36,310 nucleotides of DNA from assembly GCA_024636975.1 (NCBI GenBank), contig JAGXGA010000058.1, positions 1 through 36,310 of the forward strand. The letters are read 5' to 3'. Positions 6,898 to 35,411 of the stretch are shown in pieces. The notes beneath the pieces are model-generated. The model was not told where the DNA came from, did no database searches, and was given only the letters and a program-made list of their open reading frames with translations. This DNA comes from Mariniphaga sp. (lineage in GTDB: Bacteria; Bacteroidota; Bacteroidia; Bacteroidales; Prolixibacteraceae). The first letter of the stretch is position 1. Every line of letters starts with the position of its first letter. The translations under genes were made by a program, and so were the position numbers.

Positions 6898-8871
6898 TCA
6901 TTTTCCGGTTAATGAATTATAAACCTGCTCAAAGTTGTTACGGTAACCGGTTTGTTTAAAATGATCCGGGATTTTCATATCAGTTGTTGTCCCTTCGATT
7001 AAATTATCCGCTTGTTTTCCTTTATCAAACTCCTGGTTTTTAATGTTATTGTAAACATGAAGCACATCCTGCCTCACAGTATTGGTATAGAACCTGTTGT
7101 TGGTAAACTCCGTAATTCCGTTGCAATTGAAGTATTTTTGAAAAACAGGGTTCAGGCTTTCTTTTGCAATAGCGCCCTTTTCGCCATTTGGACCAGAAAA
7201 CAATATTTCACCGGCGACAAATGTGTTTCCCATAAATTCGAGGTTCGAGCTTAAAGGGTAACTGATTTTCTGGTGGCCCTCATCGATGAAAAGATTGTTG
7301 CGGATGGTAATCCCGTTGGCCATATGGTGGTGCATGGGCACAATGGTATTAACGGCCAGGTTGTTTTCCATGATGCAGTTTTCTGAAAGCTCATCGAAGT
7401 AATAGCTCCATTTTTCGGTGGTGTTGCCGCTGCCTGCAAGCACGGCATTGTTACGGTAGATGGTGGAATCGCCTCCATAGCAATAGATGGCGCCACCGTC
7501 AACCATCATCTGTTTAAAATTATAAATGAGGTTGTTTTCGGCAACCGATTTTTTCCCCAATCCGTTAATGGCGCAATAGGGCAGGTTGTACAACTCGCAA
7601 CCGGCCACCCGGTTATTTTCTCCGCCCCCCATAATGCCCACTGCACCAAAGTACAGTTTACCCATATCATGCAGTCCGCAGCGGCTGATTTCGATATTTT
7701 TGCCCCTGTACGACAATCCACCGGCCCCTGTATAGGAAAACCCGCAATCTTCAACTGTAATATTTTCTCCATCAATTTTAGCCGCCCAACCTGCAACATT
7801 TTTTATCTGCAGGTTTCTGAGGACCAGGTTTTCAACTTTATCGGCCACTATGGCTCCTGTAACTGCATAGGTTCCATACCCGGGATTAATGATGGGTGCT
7901 CCGGCACACGACAGCAGCAGGTTTTCAACTGTGATGCCTGAAGTACCGTTTTCAATATGAAGCAGGTGGGTTTGAACCGGGATCACAGCCGTTATTTTTT
8001 CTGCCGATTCATGGGGCAAGGGCCAGTACACAATTTTACGGTTGGGACGGTCGAGGTACCATTGTCCCGGGCGGGTCATACCCTCACGGATGTTCCATAC
8101 AATGTACTGGTGTGTTTTTTCGCCTGCCCAGGAGGCATAAGCGCCCGGCGGATGGGTTGTTTTATTTGAAAATGTAAGTCTGTGGTTTACCGTATCGTTT
8201 GCTGCCACGCCTGCATAGGAGTCGTCCCAGGCATGGAAAACAGTAAGTTCGGCATTGGCTGGATTTAGCCACGGTCCCAGATCATCCGGATTGTAGTAGA
8301 GGGTAGTCAGGTCCTCCTCAGTGGGTGTTTGCGACCATCCGCCCTGGGAGCTTTGCCATTGGTGCGGCCATTCGTTCCGGTGATTGAAGGCCCCCTTTTC
8401 AGGCAACCTCGCCCGGTCGCGCAAGGTGTCGTTTATTGTAAGAATCCTGAAATCAAGAGATACATCTTCCGGTATTTCTGTTTCCAGCCATTCGCCGGCT
8501 GTCTGCCAACCCCGGAGCGGGATACCTCCATAAAGCTTCACGCTTTTGCCGGGTTGGCCTGCTATAAGTATACCGGAATCTTCTTTGGATATTTTTACTG
8601 ATACATTGTAGTAGTTGCCTTCGCCAACAATTATTTTTTTCTTTTCACGCCCCCTTGTAAGTTCAACAGCCCGCTGCAGAGTGGCTACAGCTTCCGATTT
8701 TGTACCCCCACAGGTGTCATTTCCTGTAGGAGATACATAAACTGAGCTGTTGGTACACGATGCAATTAACAGGATTATCAGAACAAGGGGCAGATTGATT
8801 TTTACGAAAAACGGCAGCCGGGAATATAGCAGATGATAACTATTATCAGGTTGAGCAGGATTTGTTTTCAT
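6898..8871 (-). CDS. Secreted right-handed parallel beta-helix lipoprotein
   Basis: A 657-residue exported protein. A basic N-terminal stretch is followed by a hydrophobic segment (INLPLVLIILLIASC) ending in a lipobox with Cys at about 39. The mature part begins VYVSPTGNDTCGGTKSEAVATLQRA, the start usual for pectate-lyase-like/DUF1565 parallel beta-helix proteins. Many short turns with N-N-x-(I/L) ladders follow (IMENNLAVNTI, ITIRNNLFIDEG, LEFMGNTFVAGE), typical of the coil repeats. Such proteins are often polysaccharide lyases, glycosidases or surface adhesins; no catalytic set can be assigned by eye. It lies 78 bases after the transport operon on the same strand with no terminator visible between, so read-through is possible. 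A weak -7-like TATCTTTC (8901-8894) could give it its own promoter. Confidence 0.75.
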   Translation of the reverse strand: MKTNPAQPDNSYHLLYSRLPFFVKINLPLVLIILLIASCTNSSVYVSPTGNDTCGGTKSEAVATLQRAVELTRGREKKKIIVGEGNYYNVSVKISKEDSGILIAGQPGKSVKLYGGIPLRGWQTAGEWLETEIPEDVSLDFRILTINDTLRDRARLPEKGAFNHRNEWPHQWQSSQGGWSQTPTEEDLTTLYYNPDDLGPWLNPANAELTVFHAWDDSYAGVAANDTVNHRLTFSNKTTHPPGAYASWAGEKTHQYIVWNIREGMTRPGQWYLDRPNRKIVYWPLPHESAEKITAVIPVQTHLLHIENGTSGITVENLLLSCAGAPIINPGYGTYAVTGAIVADKVENLVLRNLQIKNVAGWAAKIDGENITVEDCGFSYTGAGGLSYRGKNIEISRCGLHDMGKLYFGAVGIMGGGENNRVAGCELYNLPYCAINGLGKKSVAENNLIYNFKQMMVDGGAIYCYGGDSTIYRNNAVLAGSGNTTEKWSYYFDELSENCIMENNLAVNTIVPMHHHMANGITIRNNLFIDEGHQKISYPLSSNLEFMGNTFVAGEILFSGPNGEKGAIAKESLNPVFQKYFNCNGITEFTNNRFYTNTVRQDVLHVYNNIKNQEFDKGKQADNLIEGTTTDMKIPDHFKQTGYRNNFEQVYNSLTGK

Positions 8872-8949
8872 AGTCTGATTCTTTCAAAAAAGTGAAAGAT
8901 AATAAAAAAACAACTCAGCTCACCCCGTTATCTGTCAGTATTGAAGTTC

Positions 8950-9669
8950 TTATACAAACTTCTCCCTCTTCTGCAGGTTATACAATCCGTAAAGGATGAA
9001 TACGATGCTGCCGATTCCCAGGAAGATACGATTTTTAGTGATAAGCCCCTGCCAAATGAATTCATTGAAGTTGTTTGGAATCTGAAAAGGATTTAAAAAC
9101 ACATTCCACTGGGTCCGTTCCACCATTTCCTGCGTTATCAGGAGGGCAACACCAATAAGCACCAGCAGCACGGCAGTGCCGTTTCCGTTCTTTATTACGG
9201 TGGAGAACATGAATGCCATTGAACCCAGGAAAACGATGGGGTACATCAGCTGGTAGGCCATTTCAACGATCTCTATCCTGTATAAAAGGACTGAAGCGGC
9301 GGCGGCAAAGAGCATAATAATTATAAAAATGAGGACATATATCAGCATCAACCGTACCAGCCATACCTTATACCTGTAGTTGGGAATTCCAAACAGGATT
9401 TCAAGCATCCTTGAATCATCATCGTTTTGTATTCCAAACACCGAAGGGTAAAATATAAGCAGCATGCCCGGGAATAAAAGTAATTCGTAAACAGTGCCTT
9501 CACTTAAAGTACCTCTGTTCCACACAACCTCTATTGCAAAGAACAGGAAAAATGCAAAAGCGGCCATCAGAAACCAGAAGAACCTGCCTGCAAAAATGAT
9601 TTTAAGGTTATAGCGAATCATTATTGCCTGATTAAAAAGCCAGTCTTTCAGTATTAATTCTTGTTTCAT
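8950..9669 (-). CDS. ABC-2-type permease-like membrane protein
   Basis: A 239-residue inner-membrane protein with about six predicted helices: FFWFLMAAFAFFLFFAIEVV, ELLLFPGMLLIFYPSVFGI, IYVLIFIIIMLFAAAASVLL, YPIVFLGSMAFMFSTVI, AVLLVLIGVALLI and IFLGIGSIVFILYGLYNL. The layout, with a charged loop after helix 2 (GIQNDDDSRMLEILFGIPNY), is that of small ABC-2-type permeases. It starts 3 bases after the RND-ABC fusion gene, so the natural partner is the ATPase domain at the C-terminus of that protein, perhaps with the large permease encoded upstream. It is the last gene of the operon. The family call is by topology; the membrane location is secure, the partnership inferred. Confidence 0.7.
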   Translation of the reverse strand: MKQELILKDWLFNQAIMIRYNLKIIFAGRFFWFLMAAFAFFLFFAIEVVWNRGTLSEGTVYELLLFPGMLLIFYPSVFGIQNDDDSRMLEILFGIPNYRYKVWLVRLMLIYVLIFIIIMLFAAAASVLLYRIEIVEMAYQLMYPIVFLGSMAFMFSTVIKNGNGTAVLLVLIGVALLITQEMVERTQWNVFLNPFQIPNNFNEFIWQGLITKNRIFLGIGSIVFILYGLYNLQKREKFV

Positions 9670-9672
9670 GGA

Positions 9673-12600
9673 TCAGGTATTTTTTGCAAAATCTTTTAGT
9701 AAACACAAGTATGCATCTTCCAGGTGCGGCGACACATTAACCGCATCGGCTGATGGTTTTTCCTTTGCAAGCACCCTAAGTTTAATATTTTCGCCATCAC
9801 GCATATGATGCACGATAAGCTGCTTGTTGGCAAAAGTATCGAACTCTTTGGCCGGCAGAGTCATCTGCCATACAAATCCGTCGCCCATACGCAGCATGTC
9901 GTTGGGTGCGCCGAAATACTTCAGGTCGCCCCTGTTAATAACAGCCACCTGGTTACACGAACTGGAGATGTCTTCAATTATGTGGGTAGAGAATATAACG
10001 ATGCGTTCGCGGCTCAGTTCAACCAGCAGGTTCCGGAAGCGTATGCGTTCACGCGGGTCGAGACCGGCCGTGGGTTCATCCACCACAAGGATACGCGGAA
10101 GATTGAGCAGTATCTGGGCAATTCCGATTCGCTGCTTCATCCCTCCTGAAAACGACCCGATGTTGTCGTCTTTACGGTCGTACATGTGTACACTTTTCAG
10201 AACGTACTCCATCCGGTCGTGCCGTGTTTTAATGTCAGTAATTCCTTTTAAAATGGCCTGGTAATCGAGGAACTCCCATGCCGACATGTTTTCATAGGTG
10301 CCGAAAGCCTGTGGCAGGTAACCGATAAGTCCCTGCAATTCCTCACGGTGCTTCTGCGTATCGAGCCCGTTGATCCATATCTTGCCGTAGCTTTGTTCCA
10401 GTATGCCACATATTATGCGCATCATGGTCGATTTACCTGCTCCATTGGGACCCAGCAGGCCAAACATACCGGTATTGATTTCGAGGGAAACCCCATTTAG
10501 CGCCCTGAACGGAACTTTCCGCTTTCCTATTACAGGAATCTGGCGTACCATAGTGAAATACCAACGCCGGAAACCACTCAAACGGCCTTCGATGCGGGCA
10601 ATGTTTAATTTTTTACGGTGAATGTAATCACCCGAACGGTATATTGCAAGCAGCAATATCCAGATAATGCCTACAAAGATTACCATTCCCATATTGTCCC
10701 ATTCAAGAAAGAAAATGAACAGGAACAGTGCAGGTACTCCCCAGAAAAGAATATTATTTATAATCCTGTCGAGCTTTGGGTAAACTGGTTTGGAAGTATC
10801 TTCATATTTATTTTTCAATACCTGGGAGAAGGGTACCCACAGCAAAAACAAAAAGAAAAAGACAAAATGCGACATTATCCACATCCACACGTGGCTTTCA
10901 ATATAATAGAAAGTAAAGTAGACAAGAAAACCAAAAAGAGGAATCTGCCACACCAGGTCGTAAAAATCGCGTGCTTTGCGGTAGTCTTTTGATAAGCCTG
11001 CATGTTCCCTGATTTTGATGCCAGACTTCCATTCACGGGCAAAACGGCTATCACGATCGTATATTTTAACCAGGTTGCGCACTTCAATACGGATGGATTT
11101 GTTTTCATCGATAACCTTCGAGCTGGCCTTGCGCAGGCTGGTGAGCACAAAGGCTGTGACTCCGGGAACCAGAATAAATATCAGCATAAACCCGATCAGC
11201 TTCCAGACAAAGGAATCGACTTCGAAATAGATGTAAGCCGAAGCGGCCACCAGTAATACAATTTGCATAACCTTCAGCGACCAGTGGAGCGATTTAAGCC
11301 AGTTCATGGCATTCTCCATACCAAAATACAGCGTGGGCACAAATACCAGTGTAAGCAGGGTACTTACCGAAAGGCCACCAATTACAGTGATTGCGAAAGG
11401 CGCTCCTATGGCTCCCACGTATTCCGACTGCCCCATTGCCAGTGGCATCATGGCTACAATAGTTGTAATGGCTGTAATCAATATCGGCCGCACCCTTGAA
11501 AGGCCAGCTGTTATCAGCGCCCGCGATTTCCCGTATCCCTCCTTTCGCAGTATGTTGGTGAAATCAATGAGAATAATGCCGTTGTTTACTACAACACCCA
11601 GCAATATCAGAAAGCCAGTAAGGGTATTTGCATTAAACAGGCTGTTGCCAGTAAGGATTAAGGCAATGAAGGAGCCGATTGCAGCCAGGGGTACCGAGAA
11701 CATAAGTACTACCGGAGTGATGAGCGACTCAAAGACAGAAGCCAGTATCATCAGGATCAGGATAAATGCTGCCCCGATGAGAAAATAAAATTCAGAAAAC
11801 TGGTCTTCTTCATGAATTACTTCAACTGCCACACCGGGAGGCAATTTATAATTACCTACAATTTCATCTATTTCCAGCCGGTATGCCACCAGAAGATCTT
11901 TCGATTGCTCGGCTTCCTCGGCAAAGCGATAAAAAAGTTCAATCTGTTTTTCCTGGTTAATTCTTGTAATGCTGGCCATGCCATCGGAATAAACCAATTC
12001 AGCTATATCCTGCAGGTCGTAACTGGCGCCCTGATTGTTGCTTACCTGAAGGCGCCGTAAATCGTCGATGTCTTTTTCCCTTTCCTCTTCTTCATCAAAA
12101 AGTTTCTCCTTTATGATGATCTCATATTCTTCATTTCCCTGCTTGAAATTTACACCTGATGAAAATTCATTGGTAAATGAGCCAAGTTCAGAGGCTATAT
12201 TATTCAGGTTAAGTCCGAACTGAGTTAACAGTAATTGGTTAAAATGGAGATGCAGCTCGGGTCGGTTGCTGGCAACACTCACATTGGCACTTCTGATTGA
12301 CTCGAGGCTTTCAATGTAATATTGCAGGTCTTCAGCAACGCCTTTCATGGAAGTAAAATCCTCGCCTTTAATAACAATGCGTTCCTGGTTCTCACCGATT
12401 CCAAGGAAACGGCTGAAATTCTGCATCCCTGCACCGCCGCCTCCACCTCCACCACGGAACCGTGCACTGGAAGCAGGGGCTGTAAGGCTTATTTCGGCCT
12501 GTGCAATGTTCTGCACGAGCCCTTCTACCTGTGATTTGATCTCTGCTATGTTGCGGTCGCTAATCTTTTTGAAATCCTCCTGCATAACAACAGTCAGTAC

Positions 12601-14397
12601 TGCCTCTTCCTCCTGTATGTTGGAAATGACATCCTGCCTTTCTTCCACCCCTTCCAGCCTGCTTTCCACCTCGGCTACCACAAGGTCGGTAGCCTCAAGC
12701 GTTGACCCCGTTGGCATGGTTACATAAATTGAAAACCGGTTTTCTTCCACCTCTTCCAGGTTGTTTATACTTACAGCAAGTACAATAAAGATGGTTATGA
12801 AAAACACTACAATGGCTCCAATTACGGTAGCTGCAGGTGATCGCATGCTGGCTTTAAGCAGCAATATATAAATTTGAATGATTCGGTTGTTGGTTGTTAC
12901 CTTTTCGTAAAAAATGTTGTGCGACGATTTTCCCTTCAGCAGGTAATGAGCTGCCATGGGGATGAGCAGCAACGCAACAAATAATGAAACCGTAAGGGTT
13001 GAAATGATTGAAACTCCTATATGGTTGCCAAGGAGTTTTACCATGTATTCCGAAGAAAAAAGGAATGGCAGGAAAACTGTTACGGTAGTGAGGGTAGCGG
13101 CAACAATCGACCGCCATACTTCGGTAGTTCCCTGCACCACAGCGACGTCGGGACTGTATCGCTTTCCCGAAAGGCGGTAAATGTTTTCGAGCACCACCAC
13201 ACTGTTGTCGAGCAGCATACCTATAGCCAGCACCAGTCCTACAAGTGTCAGGCTGTTTATAGTAACATTGAATGCATAAAACAGGTTGAAAGCAGTGAAT
13301 ACCGACACCGGTATGGCCAGGGCAATGATGGAAACAATGCGCACGTTTTTCAGGAACATCCACAGTACAAAGATTGCCAAAAGCCCACCAACCAGCGCAA
13401 GGTCCATTATCTGATCGATATTCTTTTCCATGGTCTCAGCAAGGTTGGTCTGAATGACCAGTTCTACATCTTTTACCTCCAGCTTTTCATTAAGGGCAGC
13501 TATCCGGTCCTGTACTTTCTGTGACAGTTCGATGAGGTTAGCCTGTGAATCACTGACAAGGGCAATGGAGACTGCATCAAGACCATTCACCCGGCTGATG
13601 CTTTCTTCCTCTTTCACACCAAAAAACACATCGGCTACATCTTTAAGATAAATGGGGCCTTCCGCAACGATTATATTTTCAATATCATTAACCTGTTCGT
13701 ATTCAGCTGTTACATGTACAAAATATTGTTTCTGGTTTTCGTGCAGGTAACCTGCAAATGTGCGGTTTGCCGAATTGGTAGTGATGGCATTGCGTATTTG
13801 TGCCGGGGTGATGTCATATGCCTCCAGTGCGCCCTTATCATATGTAATTTCGATTGAGCGTTCTTTTCCTCCAAACACGGTAACTGAAGCTATGCCGTCG
13901 ATGTTTTCCAGCTCGGCAGCAATTTCCTGGTCTACAATGTTGCGCAAACGGTCGGTTCCGCCTTCGCCCCTTATCTGCAGTTCCATAAACTGGTTGGTGA
14001 GCTGCTGTATATCGACCCGGTTCACCGATACAATAAAGTTCTCATCCAGGTTATCGGCAGCCTGCTTAATACGCTCCTGCAGTTTAAGGAAGGTGTATTT
14101 GAAGTTTACATTCTGATTGAAGTTAACCTGAATTGATGCCGTACGGTTATCCAGATACGTTTCTATGCTCTCTATCCCTTCCATGGTACCGATGGCTCCT
14201 TCAATGGGTATTACCGCCTGGTTTTCCATGTAAGCGGGATTAACTTCAATGCGGGAGTTAATCTGAACAAACAGCATTGGCAGTTCGGCGTTGGGCATAA
14301 GCTCCACCGGCAGTTGTTTATAGGAGATATACCCCAGAAGGGTAAGCCCTGTAAACAGCATGCTGATGAATATTTTTCGGTTAATGATGAACTTCAT
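9673..14397 (-). CDS. RND efflux pump fused to a split ABC ATPase
   Basis: A single uninterrupted 1574-residue protein. Residues 1 to about 1030 are a full HAE1-type RND permease: N-terminal helix, two large periplasmic loops, and 12 helices in two halves. The helix-4 motif GMLLDNSVVVLEN has D397; helix 10 has GVVVNNGIILIDF. Two more helices follow (about 1040-1090). Then IRIEVRNLVKIYDRD (Y1113) resembles the first strand and A-loop of an ABC domain. Next comes a segment of about 184 residues with four predicted helices (including VYFTFYYIES, FVFFFLFLLWVPF, WGVPALFLFIFFLEW, VIFVGIIWILLLAIY). The rest of the ABC domain follows: RALNGVSLEI, Walker A GPNGAGKST (K1322), Q-loop YLPQ, signature SFSGGMKQR, Walker B ILVVDEP (D1440, E1441) and H-loop H1472. 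All ATPase motifs are intact. The ATG at 14397 is preferred over a TTG at 14412; it lies 1 base after the preceding RND stop. Even numbers of added helices keep both ABC parts cytoplasmic. Separate RND and ABC calls would each miss half of this gene. Confidence 0.9.
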   Translation of the reverse strand: MKFIINRKIFISMLFTGLTLLGYISYKQLPVELMPNAELPMLFVQINSRIEVNPAYMENQAVIPIEGAIGTMEGIESIETYLDNRTASIQVNFNQNVNFKYTFLKLQERIKQAADNLDENFIVSVNRVDIQQLTNQFMELQIRGEGGTDRLRNIVDQEIAAELENIDGIASVTVFGGKERSIEITYDKGALEAYDITPAQIRNAITTNSANRTFAGYLHENQKQYFVHVTAEYEQVNDIENIIVAEGPIYLKDVADVFFGVKEEESISRVNGLDAVSIALVSDSQANLIELSQKVQDRIAALNEKLEVKDVELVIQTNLAETMEKNIDQIMDLALVGGLLAIFVLWMFLKNVRIVSIIALAIPVSVFTAFNLFYAFNVTINSLTLVGLVLAIGMLLDNSVVVLENIYRLSGKRYSPDVAVVQGTTEVWRSIVAATLTTVTVFLPFLFSSEYMVKLLGNHIGVSIISTLTVSLFVALLLIPMAAHYLLKGKSSHNIFYEKVTTNNRIIQIYILLLKASMRSPAATVIGAIVVFFITIFIVLAVSINNLEEVEENRFSIYVTMPTGSTLEATDLVVAEVESRLEGVEERQDVISNIQEEEAVLTVVMQEDFKKISDRNIAEIKSQVEGLVQNIAQAEISLTAPASSARFRGGGGGGGAGMQNFSRFLGIGENQERIVIKGEDFTSMKGVAEDLQYYIESLESIRSANVSVASNRPELHLHFNQLLLTQFGLNLNNIASELGSFTNEFSSGVNFKQGNEEYEIIIKEKLFDEEEEREKDIDDLRRLQVSNNQGASYDLQDIAELVYSDGMASITRINQEKQIELFYRFAEEAEQSKDLLVAYRLEIDEIVGNYKLPPGVAVEVIHEEDQFSEFYFLIGAAFILILMILASVFESLITPVVLMFSVPLAAIGSFIALILTGNSLFNANTLTGFLILLGVVVNNGIILIDFTNILRKEGYGKSRALITAGLSRVRPILITAITTIVAMMPLAMGQSEYVGAIGAPFAITVIGGLSVSTLLTLVFVPTLYFGMENAMNWLKSLHWSLKVMQIVLLVAASAYIYFEVDSFVWKLIGFMLIFILVPGVTAFVLTSLRKASSKVIDENKSIRIEVRNLVKIYDRDSRFAREWKSGIKIREHAGLSKDYRKARDFYDLVWQIPLFGFLVYFTFYYIESHVWMWIMSHFVFFFLFLLWVPFSQVLKNKYEDTSKPVYPKLDRIINNILFWGVPALFLFIFFLEWDNMGMVIFVGIIWILLLAIYRSGDYIHRKKLNIARIEGRLSGFRRWYFTMVRQIPVIGKRKVPFRALNGVSLEINTGMFGLLGPNGAGKSTMMRIICGILEQSYGKIWINGLDTQKHREELQGLIGYLPQAFGTYENMSAWEFLDYQAILKGITDIKTRHDRMEYVLKSVHMYDRKDDNIGSFSGGMKQRIGIAQILLNLPRILVVDEPTAGLDPRERIRFRNLLVELSRERIVIFSTHIIEDISSSCNQVAVINRGDLKYFGAPNDMLRMGDGFVWQMTLPAKEFDTFANKQLIVHHMRDGENIKLRVLAKEKPSADAVNVSPHLEDAYLCLLKDFAKNT

Positions 14398-14398
14398 G

Positions 14399-17300
14399 TT
14401 ATTTCTTTGCAAACAAGGTTTTTGTCCTGTCTAAAATGTCATATACACATGGAATCACAACGAGTGTCAGGAGCGTTGATGTAACAAGCCCGCCAATTAC
14501 AGCAAGGGCCATAGGCGACCGCAGTGAAGCGCTTTCCCCAAAACCGAAGGTAAGTGGCAGCAATGCCAGAACGGTTGTAAGGCTGGTCATAAATATTGGC
14601 CTGATACGTTGTTGCCCGGCCTGCAGAATGGCTTCCCGCCGATCCATTCCTTCACGTATAAGCTGATTGATCCGGTCGACCAGTATGATGGAGTTATTTA
14701 CTGCTATCCCTGCCAGCATGATAACTCCTATCAGCGCCATAATATTCAGTGTTTTTCCAAGGGCAAAAAAGATGATGATGCTGCCCACTACTGCAAGCGG
14801 GATTGTAAGCAGAATAGTAAACGGATGTATCAGCGATTCAAACTGCGAAGCCATTACCATATAAACCAGTATAACGGAGAGCAATAAGGCAAAGCCGAGG
14901 CTGCTCATTGATTCCTGTCGCTTTTCTTCCTCTCCCGTAACCATAATCCGGTAATTCGGCAGTAGTTCGATGGATGCTGTTTCCTGCCTGATTTGATCAG
15001 CAATCTGGTTAAGGGCAAGGTCTGTATCCATCTGGGCGGTAATTCTGCCGGAACGGTTTTGGTTCTTCCGGAGGATTTCCCTGGGGGATTCTCCGAATGA
15101 GATGTCGGCTATCTCGCTAAGCCTGAAAACCTGGTCTCCTGAATTAATTGTAAGATTTGATATTTCATTTAATCCTTTCTCAGGTACTTTAATGGTGATG
15201 TCGCGCATTTCACCGCCTTGTTCCATCTGCCCTGCAGTTTTTCCTTCCAGCTGGTCCTGCATCTGTGAGATAACCGTATTGATATCGAGGTTATACATGC
15301 CAGCCCTGATCCGGTCGATGTGAATCTCAACCTCGGGTGCGCCATCCTCAACTGAGGTCTGAATGTTGAACAAGCCTTGCATATTCATCATCCGGTCTTT
15401 TACCTGGTTCACCACCGATTCAATTTCGTCAAGCTCCTCTCCTCGAACCTCAACTACAACCGGAGCTTCATCTGTACCAAGTATTGATTTCAGGGCACTT
15501 TGTTCTTCTGAAAAGGTAATATCCAGACCAGAAATGTTTTGGGTCAGCACATTCATTGTCATTATCACATCGCCTGTTGTAACAGTTGAATTCTCAGCAA
15601 GAATTACCCTGATCTGGGCAGTATTTTCACCCTGGAATACCGAGGTAGCATCACCGGCTATGCTTGTGGTGGGACCTGAGTGAGAATAGATCTTATCGAG
15701 ATTACTTCCGAGGTATTCAGTGAGAATGGTTTCCAGGTTATTTACTGTAGATTCTGTACGTTCAAGCTTTGTTCCTTCCTGAAGCTTCAGGTTCATTGAT
15801 AATTCCCGGGTTTCAGTTTTAGGCATAAACTCAGTACCGATAAATGGAACCAGCATAAATGAACCTGCCACCAGCACAGCGGTCAGAATCAATACCAGCC
15901 ATTTCATTTTAAGTGTCTTATCGAGGAAACGCCCGTAACCGGTCATCTTTACCGACTTGCGTTTTACCGGTGCCTTTTTATTCCTATAAAAGCGATGGTA
16001 AAGCATTGGGATTACAAATATTGCAACAAACAAAGAAGATAAAAGCGAGAAGGCAACCGTCCATGCCTGATCCTTAAACAATTCTCCCGATGCACCATGA
16101 AGGTATACAATGGGAAGAAAAACGACAATTGTAGTCAGGGTGGAAGCAGTTATCGCTCCTCCAACTTCTGCAGTACCGCTCACTGCGGCCTCCTTGACAC
16201 TCATTCCGTTTTCATGGTTTCTGAAGATATTTTCAAGTACCACAATTGCATTGTCAACAAGCATACCGGCACCAAGCGCCAGACCTCCCAGTGTCATAAT
16301 ATTTATGGTGAGATCGTTGAAGTACATCAGGTTGAAGGTGGCAATAATTGATATCGGAATAGCAATACTTACAACAAGTGTTGTACCCACCCGGCGCAGG
16401 AAGAGAAATAATACCACTACGGCCAACAGTATACCCAGCAGGGCAGTATTTTGTACTTCAGCGATGGCATTGCTGATAAATTTTCCCTGGTTGGTTACCT
16501 GCTGCAGTGAATAACCGGGCAGCGCACGTTCAATGTTAACAAGTGCTTCATTTATCTGCTCTACTGCTTTTACTGTATTGAATTTTGTCTCTTTGTAAAT
16601 GGCAAGGCCTACACTTCGGTTGCTGTTGAAATGTACAATATTTGCAGGTTTTTTATTGCCGGTTGAAACGGTAGCTACATTCCTGAGGAATACAGGGGCC
16701 ATTTCTATCCGGGCACCGGCATCGGTTTCCAGTCTGGTGGCTTTGTATCCTACGATGAGGTTTTCAAAATCGCTCACCTCGGTAAGCATTCCTACTCCTT
16801 TTACGATATACTGGAGCCCCATTTCACTAATACGGCCACCCGATACATTTTGGTTGAAGTTTTCGATGCGGGAACTTATGTCATCAAGAGATAGTCCCTG
16901 TGCTTCGAGCCGGTAATGATCGGTTTGGATGATTATTTCACTTTCTTCCTGACCGGATAGTTCAACTTCAGCCACACCTTCGAGCCGGACAAGTTCGTTG
17001 CGGATATAATTTTCAGCCACCTTCCTGATTTCATTCATGTCGGTGATTTCATCATGGCTAACCGCAATCAACATTACCGGTGCAGTATTCGGATCGTGTT
17101 GTGTAATCCTCAGGTCATCGATTTCAGCATTTTGGGTTAATTGATTTAACGCTTTTTGAAGGTCGAGGAAAGCCTCGTCCATATCTTTATCCCAGGCATA
17201 TTCTACTGTAATCTGAGCAGTCCCTACCCTTGTAACTGATGATACCTGGATGACATCGGACTGCCGGATGGCCAGCGCTTCGATGTTTTCCACAAACTGC

Positions 17301-17485
17301 TTTTCCATTTCTTCGGGAGGACGTTCACCCGATTTAATCTCAACAAATATCCGTGGTGTGTTGAGATCGGGAAACAGGTCAACCCCCAGCTTGTCGAATG
17401 AGATGTACCCCAGCAGAATAACTGCAAGTACTATCATCAGGATGGTTACCGGGTAATCGACTGAAAATTGTGTTAATTTCTTCAT
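14399..17485 (-). CDS. HAE1-family RND efflux permease
   Basis: A 1028-residue proton-motive-force-driven inner-membrane pump, full length for the AcrB/MexB superfamily. The N-terminal helix (TILMIVLAVILLGYISF) is followed by a porter loop, helices 2-6 with GMLVDNAIVVLENIF (D411 is the conserved acidic residue), a second periplasmic loop, and helices 8-12 with GIAVNNSIILVDRINQL. The second Asp and the Lys of classical AcrB relay positions are Asn here, as in many HAE1-type pumps lacking the D-D pair. The ATG at 17485 is chosen over an upstream TTG at 17500. It lies between its adaptor gene (33 bases upstream) and the fusion gene (1 base downstream). With that second pump it probably forms a heteromeric RND trimer, as MdtB/MdtC do; this is inference. 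Confidence 0.9.
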   Translation of the reverse strand: MKKLTQFSVDYPVTILMIVLAVILLGYISFDKLGVDLFPDLNTPRIFVEIKSGERPPEEMEKQFVENIEALAIRQSDVIQVSSVTRVGTAQITVEYAWDKDMDEAFLDLQKALNQLTQNAEIDDLRITQHDPNTAPVMLIAVSHDEITDMNEIRKVAENYIRNELVRLEGVAEVELSGQEESEIIIQTDHYRLEAQGLSLDDISSRIENFNQNVSGGRISEMGLQYIVKGVGMLTEVSDFENLIVGYKATRLETDAGARIEMAPVFLRNVATVSTGNKKPANIVHFNSNRSVGLAIYKETKFNTVKAVEQINEALVNIERALPGYSLQQVTNQGKFISNAIAEVQNTALLGILLAVVVLFLFLRRVGTTLVVSIAIPISIIATFNLMYFNDLTINIMTLGGLALGAGMLVDNAIVVLENIFRNHENGMSVKEAAVSGTAEVGGAITASTLTTIVVFLPIVYLHGASGELFKDQAWTVAFSLLSSLFVAIFVIPMLYHRFYRNKKAPVKRKSVKMTGYGRFLDKTLKMKWLVLILTAVLVAGSFMLVPFIGTEFMPKTETRELSMNLKLQEGTKLERTESTVNNLETILTEYLGSNLDKIYSHSGPTTSIAGDATSVFQGENTAQIRVILAENSTVTTGDVIMTMNVLTQNISGLDITFSEEQSALKSILGTDEAPVVVEVRGEELDEIESVVNQVKDRMMNMQGLFNIQTSVEDGAPEVEIHIDRIRAGMYNLDINTVISQMQDQLEGKTAGQMEQGGEMRDITIKVPEKGLNEISNLTINSGDQVFRLSEIADISFGESPREILRKNQNRSGRITAQMDTDLALNQIADQIRQETASIELLPNYRIMVTGEEEKRQESMSSLGFALLLSVILVYMVMASQFESLIHPFTILLTIPLAVVGSIIIFFALGKTLNIMALIGVIMLAGIAVNNSIILVDRINQLIREGMDRREAILQAGQQRIRPIFMTSLTTVLALLPLTFGFGESASLRSPMALAVIGGLVTSTLLTLVVIPCVYDILDRTKTLFAKK

Positions 17486-17518
17486 TTTATTAACTTTCAA
17501 GTAGTAGCAGGGAACGTT

Positions 17519-18577
17519 CTATCGTATGATTTTAACTTTTGAGTCGTCGCGCAGTGTTTCAAATCCTCTGATGATCAGCCGCTCGTTGGCTTGCAGACCT
17601 TCTGTTACCTCCACATAATCCTGATTTTCAATACCTGTAGTAATCACACGGTCATCAGCAGCACTGTTACGGCCAACAACAAATACATATTTTCCACGGC
17701 CCCCGGTCATAATTATGTCTTTTGGGATTACAACTGTACTGTCTTTCTGGTCGGTAATGATATCGGCTTTGGCAAACATTCCCGGACGGAATTTAAGATC
17801 GGGATTGCTAATCTCAATTTTTCCGGAGAAGGTGCGGGTTTCGGTACTTATAGCAGGTGAAATTTCTGTTACCTTACCAATTAGTGTATCCTCCGGGAGG
17901 GTATAGTTGGTTACCAAAACTTCCTGTCCGAGCTTCAATTCCGACATGTTTTTTTCAGGGAGATTAATATTCAGGTACATGTTGTTGTAGCTCATCAAAG
18001 TTGCCACCGGTGAGCCCGATGCCAGCCGGGTACCATTGGTATAGTATGGCAATTCAACAATTACTCCCGAGAAAGGAGCTTTAACACTCATTTTATCAAG
18101 CTGAATGCGCACATTTTCATAATTGTACTGGGCATTTGTTACCGAAACTTCTGAGTTGCGAAGCTCGCGAAGAGTAACACCCCCTTTTTCATATAATGAC
18201 TGTTGTTTTTCAAATTCCTGCTCCGAAATTTCAAGATTGAGTTTTACCGCATCCACTGCCAGGTTGTTCTCGTATTCCTCATTTTCAAGTTTAACGATGG
18301 TTTGCCCCTTATTTACCCGGTCGCCAAGTTTAAAAGGCCTCCCTGTTGCAGGGTTATTCAGAAGGTAATAATTTCCCATCATCTCTGAGTTAAGCACAAT
18401 TTCAGAGGTTGCTTTCACTGTTCCGGTGGTGCTTACAAATTGTTTTATGCCCTGTAGTTTGATGTCTTCTACGGATACTGGCACAGCCAAATCGCTGCTT
18501 TCAGACTGGCCTTGCTGGTTGCAGGAGGCAAACGCTGCTATAATAAGGAAGAGCGGCAGGAATTTGATATTTTTCAT
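17519..18577 (-). CDS. RND/HlyD-type periplasmic adaptor lipoprotein
   Basis: A 352-residue membrane-fusion protein anchored to the inner membrane by a lipid: the signal peptide ends LIIAAFASC with C19 as lipidation site. Order of domains: beta-barrel/lipoyl half (VPVSVEDIKLQGIKQFVSTT, LGDRVNKGQTIVKLENEEY), a short alpha-helical hairpin (roughly 110-150, LNLEISEQEFEKQQSLYEKG), the second lipoyl half (MSVKAPFSGVIVELPYYTNG), a beta-barrel (KFRPGMFAKADI) and the membrane-proximal domain (VVIPKDIIMTGG). It links the RND pumps to the TolC protein encoded just upstream. The short hairpin fits a lipoprotein AcrA-like adaptor. Gaps to neighbours are 29 and 33 bases. Confidence 0.9.
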   Translation of the reverse strand: MKNIKFLPLFLIIAAFASCNQQGQSESSDLAVPVSVEDIKLQGIKQFVSTTGTVKATSEIVLNSEMMGNYYLLNNPATGRPFKLGDRVNKGQTIVKLENEEYENNLAVDAVKLNLEISEQEFEKQQSLYEKGGVTLRELRNSEVSVTNAQYNYENVRIQLDKMSVKAPFSGVIVELPYYTNGTRLASGSPVATLMSYNNMYLNINLPEKNMSELKLGQEVLVTNYTLPEDTLIGKVTEISPAISTETRTFSGKIEISNPDLKFRPGMFAKADIITDQKDSTVVIPKDIIMTGGRGKYVFVVGRNSAADDRVITTGIENQDYVEVTEGLQANERLIIRGFETLRDDSKVKIIR

Positions 18578-18606: not shown

Positions 18607-20094
18607 TTATTTATACAATTCTTGGGGAATGATTGACTGATTGTTTTCAAAATCGAACAGGCTCTGGATTTTCAGGTTCAGCAATTCAATTTTGTAATTA
18701 ATGAGTGCCTGTGCATAAGCAATTTTCCGTTCCGATAACTGTGCCTGGTAGAGGTTTAGGTCCATACCTGTAAGATCGCCGTTTTCGTACCTTTCCAGAT
18801 TAATTTCATAGGTAAGTTGTGCGTTGTTTTGGCTTTGCTCTGCAATTTGTATCTGGTTTAACTGATTTTGCAGGTTACGGTATGCTTGCCTGATGCCGAT
18901 AATAATTTGATTTTGTTCGTCTGAAAAGTTAAGCTTCTGCACTTCAATAGCAGCTTCCTGGGCTGCAATCCGTGCCTTTTTTTCACCCCAGTCGAAGAGC
19001 GGAATATTAAAGCTTACTGCAACCGACGGACTGTTTGTCGGAGTTTCAAATATCTGATCCAGTTGCGGGTTATCTCCAGAAATTCCCAGCCGAAGGTTCA
19101 CGTCTCCCCTGAATTCATTTAATGAACGTGTTCGTATCAGGTCGAATTGACTGGTTTCAACATCTATTTCCCTCTGGCGCAGTTCCATTCGCAAATCCAG
19201 CCCAGATTCTATGGCTTGTTCAAGATCGACTTCAACCGGGTTGGCTGCCACATTGGCCAGGATAGAGAAATCCTGGTATAAATCCATACCTAAATAAAGT
19301 TTAAGCTGGTCTTTTGCATTCTCAAAACTTACTTCTGCATTCTGCAGTGTTGATTTTGCCGTTGCCAGGTTCAGCTCGGCCTGGTATAACTCCTCGCGGG
19401 CAGCCAGTCCTGCAGCTACTTTATTCTGTATGATACCAAAACTGTTTTCAGTGTTTTTGAGCTCTTCCCTGGCAATGTTCAGGTTCATTTGGGCCATATA
19501 AACGTTGTAAAAAAACTGGGTAACGTTTCGTTCCAGGTTCAGGCGTTGCATGGCATAACTGATGTTTGCATTCTCAAAGTTAAGCTCAAGTTCCTTTAAT
19601 TCCAGTTTTTGCCTGTTATAGGTAAACAATGGCTGATTTAAATTGAGATAAAGGTTGTTGTAAAATACCTCGCTCTTAACATCTCTTGCACCAGAGTAAT
19701 TGCTCTGCCATCCAAATTCGTTTGTGAGTGAAATGGTACCATCGGTAGGCAGAATTGGCTGAACTATGCGGAATACAGCATTGGTATTAAAATTCTCGCT
19801 GGTATACCATTCTGAGGCCCAATCATCAAAAGTACGGCTTTTATTATATGCCACTGGCGTTACATCAAGTGAAAAGCGCGATTTCAATGCTGCCCTTTGG
19901 GCTTCCAGTGACTTTGAGAAACGCAGCAGGTTTAACCGTGAACGCTGGAGGTCGGGACTGCTAGTTTCGGCAAATTGCAGGGCTTTGTCGAGAGTTAGAA
20001 TTTCCTGCGCATGGGTTGCTGTTACCATCAGCAGGATTGCTGAAAACAGAAGTATCAATTTTCGCATTTGGTTTATAGTTTTTAAAGAATTCAT
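18607..20094 (-). CDS. TolC-family outer-membrane channel protein
   Basis: A 495-residue outer-membrane efflux protein. A signal peptide (MRKLILLFSAILLMVTATHAQ) follows nine extra residues. Two OEP repeats are visible: ILTLDKALQFAETSSPDLQR at the start, and long amphipathic helices around YNVYMAQMNLNIAREELKNT and IIIGIRQAYRNLQNQLNQI, with strands such as LNLNQPLFTYNRQ and SFNIPLFDWGEKKAR. ATGs at 20094 and 20067 are both usable; 20094 is listed because an AGG lies 5-7 bases before it. It supplies the outer-membrane exit duct for the adaptor and pumps encoded downstream. Its presence between the ABC genes and the RND genes ties the two sets together. Confidence 0.9.
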   Translation of the reverse strand: MNSLKTINQMRKLILLFSAILLMVTATHAQEILTLDKALQFAETSSPDLQRSRLNLLRFSKSLEAQRAALKSRFSLDVTPVAYNKSRTFDDWASEWYTSENFNTNAVFRIVQPILPTDGTISLTNEFGWQSNYSGARDVKSEVFYNNLYLNLNQPLFTYNRQKLELKELELNFENANISYAMQRLNLERNVTQFFYNVYMAQMNLNIAREELKNTENSFGIIQNKVAAGLAAREELYQAELNLATAKSTLQNAEVSFENAKDQLKLYLGMDLYQDFSILANVAANPVEVDLEQAIESGLDLRMELRQREIDVETSQFDLIRTRSLNEFRGDVNLRLGISGDNPQLDQIFETPTNSPSVAVSFNIPLFDWGEKKARIAAQEAAIEVQKLNFSDEQNQIIIGIRQAYRNLQNQLNQIQIAEQSQNNAQLTYEINLERYENGDLTGMDLNLYQAQLSERKIAYAQALINYKIELLNLKIQSLFDFENNQSIIPQELYK

Positions 20095-20113: not shown

Positions 20114-23100
20114 TTACAATTTTACCAGACGCACAGCATCGGCAAATACCAGCCTGGATTCTGATTGGTTAGTTAACTCAATTAGCGCTGTATCGGGTGA
20201 GAAATAAAAAGATCCCAGGTGGTTCCACCCTTCATCGGCACTTTGTATGGCAAGGGTTTGTTCTTCTACCCCGTCATCACTATGAATGAAGAAGTGGTAT
20301 TCCCCATTCTCATCATCTCCCCCTCTGCGGCCACCCCGGCGTGGCTTGTATAAATGATAATATACATCGTAAAATCCTGGCTCAGTTAAGGGCACATTCC
20401 ATTTTGCTTTCATGGAGCCATCGCCTGCCTTAATATAATAAGCCGAACGAATGTATTCACCAAAGAAGTCGGAATTTGTAACGGCTGTCCAGTTTGAAGG
20501 TGGTCTCCAGTGATATATGCCTGAATATTTTTGGACTGCCGCCTCTTCATCAATAAGCCATTTCTCGAGTAAACTTATTTCTTCGTTTACAGTTATTTCA
20601 AACTGAGGATCTTCATTATCCACTATAATTTCCCCGGGCAACTGTTTGCTGACGGGGTTGTCGGAAACCAGTTCTCCTTCGGATGCCACTGCCCTGGGGT
20701 CTTCTTCTATATTCTGCATTCCCTGCATAATTAACTGAGGGATGTTTTGAGAAGTCATTGTATTGATCATCAACATCCGGGGGTCGGCATTGAGCATGTA
20801 ACTCAGGTCTTTGGTCTGATGAGGTTCCATGTACACCAGTTTGTTTATCATTTCTTCGGAACCGCGCCCGCCTCCAAATCCCCGTCCCGGGCCTCCGCCA
20901 CCACCTAACCGGAATGAAAGCTTTACAATCCCGCTGGTTTCTGAGAAGTTGGTTATTTTAAGTGACACCTTTGTTCTCATGCGATCACCCGATTTTACTT
21001 TAACTGCCTCAATGGGGGAAAAGATATAACCGGGAAGCGCCTTTGCCATAAACCATTCATCCATAAGCGGAGTTAACTCCACTCCAAACTGCTCTTTAAT
21101 GCGGCTGTCGAACTGTTCAAAGCTGATGTTTTTAAACCGGTACTCCCTGAGCAGTTCACGCAGGAAATCCTCAAATGCTTCCTGCCCGGCTTTCCATTGA
21201 ACTGTAGAAAACAAAACTTCCCCTTTGAGTTTAATTACGTTGCTGATTACGGGTTTTTGCTTCGGATCAGCCAGAATTTCTTCAAAGGTGCTGTCCTGCA
21301 AGGCCATATTAGCCTTTTCATCGCCGCTGAGCCCCTGCATGTTTTGCATCCACATATTGCCCATATCATTCGACTGGCTTTTCAGATAAGCCTCAAATAT
21401 ACGGTTGGTTATCGGCCATTCATCCGATTGGATATTATTCTGAAAATTATAGAACATCGGGAAAATAAAATATGGATTGGGCACTTCCTCAACGCTGAAA
21501 CTTCCCCTGTTACTTTGCCAGTCCGTGCCGTTTTCATCTGCAAAAACACCCAAAAAATCATAGAGTATGCGGATTTCAACGTCCTGGTCAGTCATGTTGT
21601 TATCACCCCGGCGACCCCAGCGTTCCATTCTTTTTCTGGAACCTACCAGATCGGCTTCGCGAATCATAAATCCTTTTTCAGGTATCAGTATCTGTTCGGG
21701 CTGAACATATTCCTGCATGCTGGTCCAGATGCGTTCGTAGGTTTTAAATTGGGCAGGTACTTCTACCAGAAACAAACGATCAAATTCATATTCCAACTTA
21801 TAGGTTCGTTCAAAATCCTCCAGTCTTTCTTTAAGGGATTCAGTAAGAGTATCTTTTATTAAAGGCAATTCATCAGAAAAATAATCGTGTCCTTTAGTTA
21901 TCCATATACCAAATTCGAGGCTGTCGCTTTTAATGGTTTTCTTCTCATATTCGCCAATAGCCAGTGAAAGCTGGGTTAACGGTACATTGCTGCTGAAACT
22001 AAACCTGCCGGGTGAAACTTCGGTTATTTCTCCCTGCGACACAGCCTGAAGGACGGGCCGGGTTGTAACATCGAGGTCGAAATCGATGAACTCCGGCTGA
22101 TACCAGCTCACATCGGTTGTACTGTAGGTAACGCCTGCTTTTGGATACCAGTTGATTTCGGGTGTAAGCAGAACATAATCAGGAGTTAGAAATGCATGGC
22201 GTTTATCAACATTCAAAACAAAACGTCCGTATTTCTCAACACGTTCTTCTTCAGTAATATCAAGATAACTGGTGGTTTCATCAACTGCACCGGAATAGGA
22301 TATTTCAATTTCGGCCTGCTGTCCCGGTTGAATGGATATCCCTTCATTGGCAATAATCAAATGGTGCTGACGGCTGAAAGGTATGACTGTACCATTCAGC
22401 TTCACTTCATTCACTTTAAGTCCATTATTCAGGCTGAAGATAAGCTTGTTCAATGCATCATTGTGCTGATTGTTAATAGTAACTGTTGAGACGGCACTCA
22501 GCTCTTTGCCCTCGTGCTTAAGCATGATGGAATGTGCTACAGTGGAGGGTATCTTTTCCTTTACAAATTCATTGTTCAGAACAATTACCTCTTTTCTTAG
22601 ATTATCGTTTGATTTAAATTCCGATATGTGGCGGTACCCCAAATAACCTCCGGCCCCAAAAAACAGGATGGTAAATATGAGTGAAAAAACAGTCATCGAT
22701 TCCGACTGAGGAAGTCTTTTTAAGAGGTATATAGTTAAAAATATGAAGCTGACACCCAATGAAAAATAGATTCCCCGATGGATAAGTACCTTGTCGAGGT
22801 TGCCCATACCGGCGATATCGGAAATGAGCATGGGAATGTTAAATGCCATGTAATCGAAAATGTAGTAATACTTGGCTTCAAGCAGGAAAAGCGTTATTCC
22901 GATGTAACCCAGTACCAGAACAAAAGTAATTGCCTGGTTGCGGATTACGCTCATCAGCATAAACGACAGGCCCATAATAAATACAAGTGTTGGTATACTG
23001 ATTAACAATAGGTAAATTACATAGGACGCCCAATGAACAGAAGTGTCCTTTGCCAGCAGGTTAAAAATAAGAGCCATTACTATTACGGCAATATTCAGTA

Positions 23101-23461
23101 CAAGGAATACCTGAAGGTTACCCCATGTTTTGCCGATGACATATTCACCATTGGTCATCGAACGCATATAAATCACCTCGGTGGTATCAAGTTTTTTATC
23201 GCGCTTTAAGAAATCGGAAGCCAGGAATACTGCAATAATTGCCTGGGCTACGTTAAGTATTAATAAATTAAAATAGGGAATGGCAGCTGGTATACTGCGG
23301 ATGGCCCATCCTTCCTCACCTCCGCCTTCTATAACCATCCCAAAATTCATTCCGAACAGAATAAGGAGGGAAAGCACACTGAATATTCTGAAAAACCAGC
23401 TTCTCAAAAGGGTTTTACGCTCATATTTTGCAATTGAAAATATATTATGAAATGAAATCAT
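20114..23461 (-). CDS. ABC-2 permease fused to zinc-less M1-peptidase-like domain and golvesin-C tail
   Basis: A 1115-residue protein. Residues 1 to about 280 hold seven predicted helices in an ABC-2 permease layout (IFSVLSLLILFGMNFGMVI, FNLLILNVAQAIIAVFLAS and others), with a cytoplasmic loop carrying FLKRDKKLDTTEVIYMRSMT. Residues about 290-860 are periplasmic and follow M1 aminopeptidase order (PKAGVTY, FIDFDLDVTTRPVLQAVSQG, FDRLFLVEVPAQFKTYERIW). The G-A-M-E-N exopeptidase motif reads SMQEYVQ, and no HExxH is found; the expected place reads NNIQSDEWPITNRIFEAYL. It is probably not a metallopeptidase. A glycine-rich run (GGGGGPGRGFGGGRG) follows. Residues 979-1115 match golvesin C-terminal/xanthan-lyase-like beta domains (YSGIYHWRPPSNW to VFADAVRLVKL). 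ABC permease/M1 fusions are common in Bacteroidetes; loss of the zinc site with this tail is unusual. Partner: the ATPase gene 18 bases upstream. Confidence 0.85.
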   Translation of the reverse strand: MISFHNIFSIAKYERKTLLRSWFFRIFSVLSLLILFGMNFGMVIEGGGEEGWAIRSIPAAIPYFNLLILNVAQAIIAVFLASDFLKRDKKLDTTEVIYMRSMTNGEYVIGKTWGNLQVFLVLNIAVIVMALIFNLLAKDTSVHWASYVIYLLLISIPTLVFIMGLSFMLMSVIRNQAITFVLVLGYIGITLFLLEAKYYYIFDYMAFNIPMLISDIAGMGNLDKVLIHRGIYFSLGVSFIFLTIYLLKRLPQSESMTVFSLIFTILFFGAGGYLGYRHISEFKSNDNLRKEVIVLNNEFVKEKIPSTVAHSIMLKHEGKELSAVSTVTINNQHNDALNKLIFSLNNGLKVNEVKLNGTVIPFSRQHHLIIANEGISIQPGQQAEIEISYSGAVDETTSYLDITEEERVEKYGRFVLNVDKRHAFLTPDYVLLTPEINWYPKAGVTYSTTDVSWYQPEFIDFDLDVTTRPVLQAVSQGEITEVSPGRFSFSSNVPLTQLSLAIGEYEKKTIKSDSLEFGIWITKGHDYFSDELPLIKDTLTESLKERLEDFERTYKLEYEFDRLFLVEVPAQFKTYERIWTSMQEYVQPEQILIPEKGFMIREADLVGSRKRMERWGRRGDNNMTDQDVEIRILYDFLGVFADENGTDWQSNRGSFSVEEVPNPYFIFPMFYNFQNNIQSDEWPITNRIFEAYLKSQSNDMGNMWMQNMQGLSGDEKANMALQDSTFEEILADPKQKPVISNVIKLKGEVLFSTVQWKAGQEAFEDFLRELLREYRFKNISFEQFDSRIKEQFGVELTPLMDEWFMAKALPGYIFSPIEAVKVKSGDRMRTKVSLKITNFSETSGIVKLSFRLGGGGGPGRGFGGGRGSEEMINKLVYMEPHQTKDLSYMLNADPRMLMINTMTSQNIPQLIMQGMQNIEEDPRAVASEGELVSDNPVSKQLPGEIIVDNEDPQFEITVNEEISLLEKWLIDEEAAVQKYSGIYHWRPPSNWTAVTNSDFFGEYIRSAYYIKAGDGSMKAKWNVPLTEPGFYDVYYHLYKPRRGGRRGGDDENGEYHFFIHSDDGVEEQTLAIQSADEGWNHLGSFYFSPDTALIELTNQSESRLVFADAVRLVKL

Positions 23462-23479: not shown

Positions 23480-24388
23480 TTATGTGTTCGACCATTGATT
23501 TAGTTTATTTTCCATAAAATGAACGTATGCATGTTCCAGGTTCGGTTCTATAGGTTTTCCATAGTATCCGTTAACCTCAGGGGCAACTACCTGTACCTCC
23601 CAGCCTCCTTCAATCGGGATGGTTGAAATTACAGGATATTTTTCATTGATTTCCATATATTCGGCCTGGGTAGCATTTATAACCCATACATTCCCTTTGG
23701 CTTCTTCAACCAGCTGCTCGGGCGATCCTGCGAATGCCAGTTCTCCCTTTGAAAGAAGAGCCATATTGTTGCACGTACTGGATATATCACCAACAATATG
23801 TGTGGAAAGAATAATTATAACATCCTGGGTGCTGATATTCGACAGCAAATTACGGAAACGAATACGCTCTTCAGGGTCAAGTCCGGTTGTAGGCTCATCA
23901 ACTATTATTATTCTGGGGTCATTTATAAGCGCCTGGGCAATACCCAATCTCCGTTTCATCCCGCCTGAAAGCTTATTGGCATTCCGGTCACGGGCTTCAT
24001 ACAATCCCACTTCCTCAAGCATTTTATCGACTGCTGTTTTACGCTTTGCGCCGTTCTTCATACCTGCAAGGCGCGCAGCATAATCCAAAAATTCATATGT
24101 TTTTAGTTTGGAAAAAAAACTGAAATCCTGGGGAAGATATCCCAGCATCGAACGAATTTCCCGCCTGTTTTTTAAAAGATCGAGGTCATCAACCATCACT
24201 TTCCCCGAAGAAGGCTTCATTAACGTTACCAATATCCGCATCAGCGTCGACTTTCCGGCCCCGTTCGGCCCCAGCAATCCGAACATACCGTTGGGTATCT
24301 CCAGGTTCAGGTTTTTGATGGCATAATTCCCATTGCGGTAAACCTTGTTCAGATTTTCAATCTTGATTTGCACGGTTCCTTTATTCAA
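23480..24388 (-). CDS. ABC transporter ATP-binding protein
   Basis: A 302-residue cytoplasmic ATPase, first gene of the operon. It has the strand and A-loop IKIENLNKVYRNGNY, Walker A GLLGPNGAGKST, Q-loop YLPQ, signature KLSGGMKRR, Walker B IIIVDEPTTGLD and the H-loop in LSTHI. A C-terminal extension of about 70 residues ends EPNLEHAYVHFMENK. It closely resembles the ATPase part of the RND-ABC fusion (shared GMFGLLGPNGAGKST, ERIRFRNLL, STHI, and matching C-terminal endings), so the two are likely paralogues. The listed start is a TTG at 24388; a GTG at 24373 has AAAGGA just upstream and may be the true start. It pairs with the large permease encoded next. Confidence 0.9.
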   Translation of the reverse strand: MNKGTVQIKIENLNKVYRNGNYAIKNLNLEIPNGMFGLLGPNGAGKSTLMRILVTLMKPSSGKVMVDDLDLLKNRREIRSMLGYLPQDFSFFSKLKTYEFLDYAARLAGMKNGAKRKTAVDKMLEEVGLYEARDRNANKLSGGMKRRLGIAQALINDPRIIIVDEPTTGLDPEERIRFRNLLSNISTQDVIIILSTHIVGDISSTCNNMALLSKGELAFAGSPEQLVEEAKGNVWVINATQAEYMEINEKYPVISTIPIEGGWEVQVVAPEVNGYYGKPIEPNLEHAYVHFMENKLNQWSNT

Positions 24389-30223: not shown

Positions 30224-30227
30224 TAAT

Positions 30228-35190: not shown

Positions 35191-35411
35191 AATTGTTATC
35201 TTTTTTGTGTTCATAAATCCAGACCAATTATATACCAGAATGTTTAAAAGAATTCTGCTATCAAAAACCAGTGTTTTTTTATTTCGGCACAAATAAAGAC
35301 ATTTTTGTCTTAAATGGAATGGGCAACTGATATCAGGTGCCTGAAAATTTTCATTAAATTCACATTCAGAAACAAATGGCAGGCTGTCCATCCTTCCATT
35401 TTTACTTCCTG

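Follow-up and report, generated by a model that had tools for sequence, protein, structure and literature searches.

A conserved fusion of an RND permease with an apparently membrane-split ABC ATPase in a seven-gene bacterial operon

Transporter classifications keep RND pumps apart from ABC exporters, the two being powered differently. In a 36,310-nucleotide stretch of Mariniphaga sp. DNA (contig JAGXGA010000058.1; hereafter the window), one gene joins the two in a single chain, a full RND permease being followed by an ABC ATPase that looks catalytically intact. The fusion is genuine and conserved and is no misassembly. Its ATPase appears to be split by membrane helices, and the gene next to it likely encodes an ABC-2-type partner subunit. 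That the join is conserved points to an export system possibly powered by two energy sources together.

Results

A full RND permease and an ABC ATPase share one frame

The gene is, as the first-pass annotation had read it, an uninterrupted frame of 1574 codons, and it lies on the minus strand, which that annotation had not stated. A longer version of the frame (9673..14412, minus strand) starts at TTG and encodes 1579 aa, as against 1574 aa from the ATG at 14397. Residue numbers here follow the TTG version; subtracting 5 gives the earlier ATG numbering, in which the residues singled out were K1322, D1440/E1441, H1472, and D397, all present as K1327, D1445/E1446, H1477, and D402. The claim that a full RND permease and an ABC ATPase occur in one protein is borne out by a Pfam search, which returned ACR_tran at residues 6-1030 (E 1.1e-163), covering positions 2-1018 of the 1021 in the profile and thus the full domain, together with ABC_tran at residues 1305-1449 (E 2.8e-28). 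Between close pairs, dN/dS is 0.010-0.064 in the RND part (14 pairs, not all independent) and 0.000-0.030 in the ATPase part (12 of the 14, where computable). The features of the operon are collected in Table 1.

Table 1. Position and assignment of the operon genes and of the segments of the fusion (window coordinates; residues in TTG numbering)
Feature	Position	Strand	Basis or remark
ABC-2 type (type V) membrane subunit, likely partner	8950..9669	-	239 aa; model, Foldseek, adjacency
Fusion gene (RND permease, two-helix hairpin, split ABC ATPase by alignment and model)	9673..14397	-	1574 codons from ATG
Rest of ABC ATPase, Walker A to end	9676..10506	-	residues 1303-1579; Pfam ABC_tran, hhalign block 1, Foldseek
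Membrane insert inside ATPase	10507..11043	-	residues 1124-1302; four predicted membrane helices, two in L191
ATPase first strand and A-loop	11044..11094	-	residues 1107-1123; hhalign block 2, model strand
Two-helix membrane hairpin between RND and ATPase	11125..11283	-	residues about 1044-1096; hydropathy, model helices
RND (HAE1-like) permease domain of fusion	11323..14397	-	residues 6-1030; Pfam ACR_tran
Second RND permease, no ATPase	14399..17500	-	Pfam; sister clade of the fusion's RND part
Periplasmic adaptor	17519..18577	-	RND_mfp above curated cut-off
TolC-like outer membrane channel	18607..20094	-	OEP
Permease: ABC-2-like membrane part, M1-peptidase-like domain without HExxH, Golvesin_C	20114..23461	-	ABC-2 and M1 matches below Pfam cut-off
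Separate ABC ATPase	23480..24388	-	own genome's closest match to the fused ATPase, 42% identity

The fusion recurs across two phyla

A survey of genomes for the same architecture, which the first-pass annotation had proposed, found long frames spanning the joining region again in relatives; the arrangement that would have spoken against a fusion, relatives with two separate genes, was looked for as well and was not seen in any of the loci read. A probe for the joining region was positive in 37 of 60 relatives (33 of 36 from the same family, the window's own genome included, and 4 of 24 other genomes of the order) and, across the phylum, in 6 of 395 genomes, again counting our own. By an alignment probe, 42 of 295 genomes in the order were positive, two of them (G526 and G555) doubtfully, as were 41 of 82 in a second phylum, that of G717 (candidate division KSB1). 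Frames of at least 1500 codons that include the joining region were present in 31 of the 37 matching relatives, in all five matching genomes of the phylum sample besides our own, in 32 of the 40 clear matches in the order, and in 31 of the 41 in the second phylum. Five of the six shorter frames among the 37 relatives reach a contig end and in the sixth (G007) the frame breaks near the start of the RND part, while the shorter frames in the order (8) and in the second phylum (10) were mostly counted by length alone; in two genomes of the latter (G778 and G797) the frame changes inside the joining region. Some KSB1 members form a divergent subfamily, whose fusion is 32-36% identical to the window's and has the same architecture. 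A search of genome contigs, with a query that included 46 RND residues, gave 410 confirmed stretches, and in all 80 of those examined the RND and ABC matches lay in one frame.

In three same-family genomes without the fusion (G013, G022, and G032), the ABC-2 subunit is missing too, and no RND exceeds 31% identity to that of the operon. Long RND frames in these genomes were considered as RND-ABC fusions and rejected, being RND-OEP fusions of 1443, 1443, and 1483 aa (L199, L200, and L201). They resemble the present gene in being long RND fusions from the same bacterial family, but their partner is an outer membrane channel domain and they carry no ATPase. As to a mobile or viral origin of the fusion, no plasmid match was found, and viral contigs gave 33 pattern matches with zero relatives among them. 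In an ATPase tree, which like the RND tree below used few outgroups, the fusions form one clade (96/99), with a weak sister relation to the operon's separate ATPase (90/36). Most simply, the genes would have fused once, before the two lineages separated, with later vertical descent and losses.

The fused ATPase appears to be split by a membrane insert

Beyond the RND part, hydropathy finds the six further membrane helices of the first-pass annotation, with one correction to their placement: two helices are followed by the first strand of the ATPase and only then by the other four. In an hhalign comparison with the C-terminal part of the fusion, residues 22-290 of the operon's separate ATPase align on 1303-1570 (E 3e-102), and a second block places residues 6-22 on 1107-1123. 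Weak when taken alone (E 0.007, probability 5.5%), this second block is collinear with the first and ends where the first begins. Its residues K1116 and Y1118 are kept in 120 of 120 distinct fusions, and the pattern of this A-loop block was found in 135 of 136 frames. In the predicted model of residues 1031-1579 (pLDDT 83.4, pTM 0.65), the only strand before 1302 is that at 1109-1118, which would therefore have to pair within the ATPase sheet, a pairing deduced from the strand assignment and not from coordinates. The A-loop strand and Walker A lie about 180 residues apart, so that the nucleotide-binding domain appears interrupted, and the four membrane helices of the insert span 1156-1266. Alignment and model thus describe a split ATPase, missed in the first-pass annotation, consisting of the first strand with the A-loop, some 180 residues with four predicted membrane helices, and the remainder from Walker A onward; a nucleotide-binding domain of this kind would tolerate four membrane helices between A-loop and Walker A.

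Hydropathy counts 2+4 helices in 77 of 136 frames and, depending on the threshold, fewer in the remainder; the even numbers, two and four, would leave the ATPase in the cytosol. In a fusion of 1509 aa (L191) the insert has two helices by hydropathy and the linker is about 70 residues shorter. Another fusion, of 1532 aa and with a shortened joining region (L190), has one insert helix by threshold. Searched against Pfam and PDB, the joining region gave only scattered weak matches. The Walker A Lys, Q-loop, signature, Walker B Asp/Glu, D-loop, and H-loop are invariant in the 119-120 distinct fusions covering them, and from these motifs the fused ATPase looks catalytically intact. By sequence it resembles GldA and DrrA-like ATPases, and the Foldseek matches of the ATPase part are 4yer, LptB, and NosF.

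The next gene likely encodes an ABC-2-type partner

The gene that follows the fusion, also passed over in the first reading, likely encodes an ABC-2-type membrane domain and is the likely partner of the fused ATPase. The 239-aa window protein has no Pfam match, and only 3 of its 47 relatives match an ABC-2 Pfam model, weakly. Its predicted model (pLDDT 87.2) has PmtCD, NosY, and ABCG membrane domains as best Foldseek matches (probability 1.00, TM about 0.5, best E 0.013 and so not below 0.001), and residues 85-93 of the model form a helix compatible with a coupling helix. In three overlapping sets of loci, the gene lies directly downstream of the fusion and in the same orientation in 38 of 40, 74 of 80, and 14 of 16 cases. 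In nine of the ten loci without this adjacency the contig ends within 0.7 kb; the exception is L189, where a DUF6544/DUF6920 gene (11225-12427, plus strand) takes the ABC-2 place and a different contig carries the ABC-2 relative. In L050 the fusion and the ABC-2 gene are all that the locus holds, with an RND relative on another contig. In L183 and L185 the pair is divergent from the ABC/M1-like genes (in L183 also from the TolC, adaptor, and RND genes), which suggests that the gene set comprises two modules. The fused ATPase very probably works with this separate membrane protein, so that ATP need have no action at all on the RND half. Of the earlier proposal that a single polypeptide couples two energy sources, the chain itself holds, an RND permease and an intact-looking ABC ATPase that have been together for long and are conserved; the coupling is a hypothesis.

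The operon carries two sister RND permeases with altered relay residues

All on one strand and closely spaced, the seven genes run in the order ABC ATPase, ABC-2/M1-like permease, TolC-like channel, adaptor, RND, fusion, and ABC-2 subunit; the fusion is separated from its neighbors by 1 base before the ATG and 3 after the stop. All seven are found in this order in 33 of 41 loci (41 genomes, window included), two of which have a broken frame, L046 in the RND gene and L064 at the N-terminus of the fusion. Seven of the other eight loci are cut by contig ends, and the eighth is L050. The genes flanking the operon vary between loci. M1 peptidase activity of the ABC-2/M1-like permease was considered and rejected, HExxH occurring, at any place, in only 1 of 43 relatives.

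None of the NCBIfam RND subfamily models listed matches the RND part of the fusion above its curated cut-off. The AcrB proton relay (D407, D408, K940, R971, and T978) is incomplete in it. The places of D407, R971, and T978 are kept, with D402 in 116 of 116 and R973 and T980 in 120 of 120 distinct fusions, and the equivalent of AcrB E414 is invariant. The D408 place (N403), however, is Asn in 114 of 116 and Thr in 2 of 116, and the K940 place (N943) is Asn in all 120. Judged by these residues, the RND half is without two of the three AcrB proton-relay residues and so would not be a plain AcrB-type pump to which an ATPase has been added. The operon's plain RND has Asn at both places in 26 of 26 sequences. 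The same N/N pattern occurs in an RND of the same genome without an ABC part (own_C45), and own_C38 has Asn at the K940 place; the pattern is thus apparently not tied to ATP.

In a tree of RND sequences (62 rows, 8 of them outgroups; quick method), the clade of the 28 fusions is sister (SH-aLRT 98) to a clade made up of the 26 operon RNDs. The RND part of the fusion and the plain RND are 29% identical. On this tree, the two RND subunits would stem from one duplication, as in the MdtBC type.

Discussion

Our best reading, to which we give about an even chance, is that an ABC exporter has been welded to an RND/TolC pump, with ATP and proton steps in series, so that export would proceed in two stages. 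The plain RND and the fusion's RND half would assemble into a mixed trimer, like MdtB/MdtC, and dock via the single adaptor on the TolC-like channel. Anchored through membrane helices of its own, the ATPase half would pair with the downstream ABC-2 subunit as an ABC exporter at the side of the pump, which the first ATPase/permease pair of the operon would perhaps join, giving two ATPases and two membrane domains. The ATP step would move the substrate out of the cytoplasm or the inner leaflet and hand it to the RND stage, which would take it from the periplasm to the outside. We favor two steps in series on the grounds that RND and ABC parts share one frame, that the ATPase residues are invariant and dN/dS is low in both halves, and that the fusion and the ABC-2 gene stay adjacent even where other operon genes are apart (L050, L183, and L185). 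The three fusion-less genomes of the same family, lacking both the ABC-2 subunit and a close RND, argue in the same direction, as do the ABC-2-like fold predicted for the likely partner, the sister relation of the RNDs (MdtB and MdtC also arose by duplication), and the precedent of SecA followed by SecDF. Counted against it are the E-value of the ABC-2 fold (above 0.001) and the few Pfam ABC-2 matches among the relatives, the Asn residues at the D408 and K940 places in both RND subunits, the exception at L189, and the weak sister relation of the ATPases.

A bolder version, which we regard as a tentative and rather unlikely proposal, is a true hybrid transporter in which the split, membrane-anchored ATPase would drive, or power in series, the cycle of an RND with an altered proton relay. 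A 2:1 trimer of two fusions and one plain RND would set exactly two ATPase domains side by side, which is one working dimer.

In the best-placed alternative, which we consider improbable, the RND half would run on the proton gradient as usual, and the ATPase with its insert and the ABC-2 subunit would open, lock, or disassemble the pump without moving any substrate. The retained relay residues D402, E409, R973, and T980 fit such gating, as does the anchoring of the ATPase by its own membrane insert; however, the operon's complete ABC-2-type subunit and its further ATPase/permease pair look like transport, and purifying selection on the catalytic motifs fits gating and transport alike. A lower probability still goes to the replacement of the proton gradient by ATP, with an ATPase dimer pulling on an RND trimer whose AcrB-type proton triad is broken in both RNDs. 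The Asn counts in the fusions and the operon RNDs speak for this, and D408/K940-type changes abolish export in AcrB (PMC8277102); yet the equivalents of D407, R971, T978, and E414 are invariant in the fusions, and own_C45 and own_C38 share the pattern, in full or at the K940 place, the former without an ABC part. Quite doubtful is a mere tether, in which the fused ATPase would serve only its ABC-2 partner and the join would set only how many copies are made and where, the two halves being linked neither mechanically nor through a substrate. The fusion and the ABC-2 gene do stay together where the other operon genes lie elsewhere or are divergent, but a bare tether would be expected to split at times, whereas the join is kept across two phyla and in families with 30% divergence, with no separated copy among the loci followed up. 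An assembly or sequencing artefact joining two genes is ruled out for practical purposes by the recurrence of the fusion in independent genomes, including isolates such as Draconibacterium orientale (L084), and by the low dN/dS, and nothing was found to support it, the frame changes in G778 and G797 and the early RND break in G007 being likelier errors or decay the other way.

Among known systems, MdtABC, an HAE1-type RND tripartite pump, also has RND permeases, an adaptor, and a TolC-like channel in one operon, with two related RND subunits for one adaptor. In the present operon, by contrast, the fusion subunit carries an ABC ATPase and the D408 and K940 places are Asn. MdtB and MdtC, described in PMC7015380 as duplication products that form a B2C1 heterotrimer, are 50% identical, more than the two RNDs here. 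ABC-2/type V exporters (PmtCD, NosDFY) share the ATPase fold and motifs and, going by the predicted model, a likely partner subunit of ABC-2-like shape, but here the ATPase is fused to an RND permease and appears broken by a membrane insert after the A-loop. In MacAB-TolC and other ABC tripartite pumps, too, ATPase, adaptor, and TolC occur together; in MacB, however, the ATPase is joined to an ABC permease of its own (PMC8277102), whereas the fused permease here is an RND. The same source presents SecA (ATP) followed by SecDF (proton force) as a two-energy precedent in the RND superfamily. SecA/SecYEG and SecDF are separate proteins with protein cargo, in contrast to one chain and a TolC route. 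ArsAB, a carrier that runs with or without its ATPase, belongs to unrelated families and has separate subunits.

The first-pass annotation knew of no characterised example, and our literature search agrees: no description of an RND-ABC ATPase fusion was found, in the host-family literature likewise, judged by titles and the starts of abstracts and mostly outside subscription journals. The fusion may well be catalogued, unstudied, in databases of annotated architectures. Its modules are known singly; their combination in one chain, the membrane-split ATPase as predicted, and the conserved two-engine operon match no system that we found. If our reading is true, it would define a transporter class using ATP and probably an ion gradient in one assembly, and the fusion offers a direct way to ask whether transport steps across two membranes are mechanically linked.

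Other features of the window

A scan of 8700-9000 for promoters and terminators gave nothing above chance, no RNA genes were found in the window, and a 496-aa frame (33901-35391, minus strand) has no Pfam match. Upstream of the operon lies a gene for a DUF3244-matching protein of 195 aa with a signal-like start (24581-25168, minus strand), relatives of which occupy this place in 7 other loci, all within the nearest clade. Farther on, three genes in succession (28087-31052, minus strand) each encode a cyclophilin-type prolyl isomerase domain.
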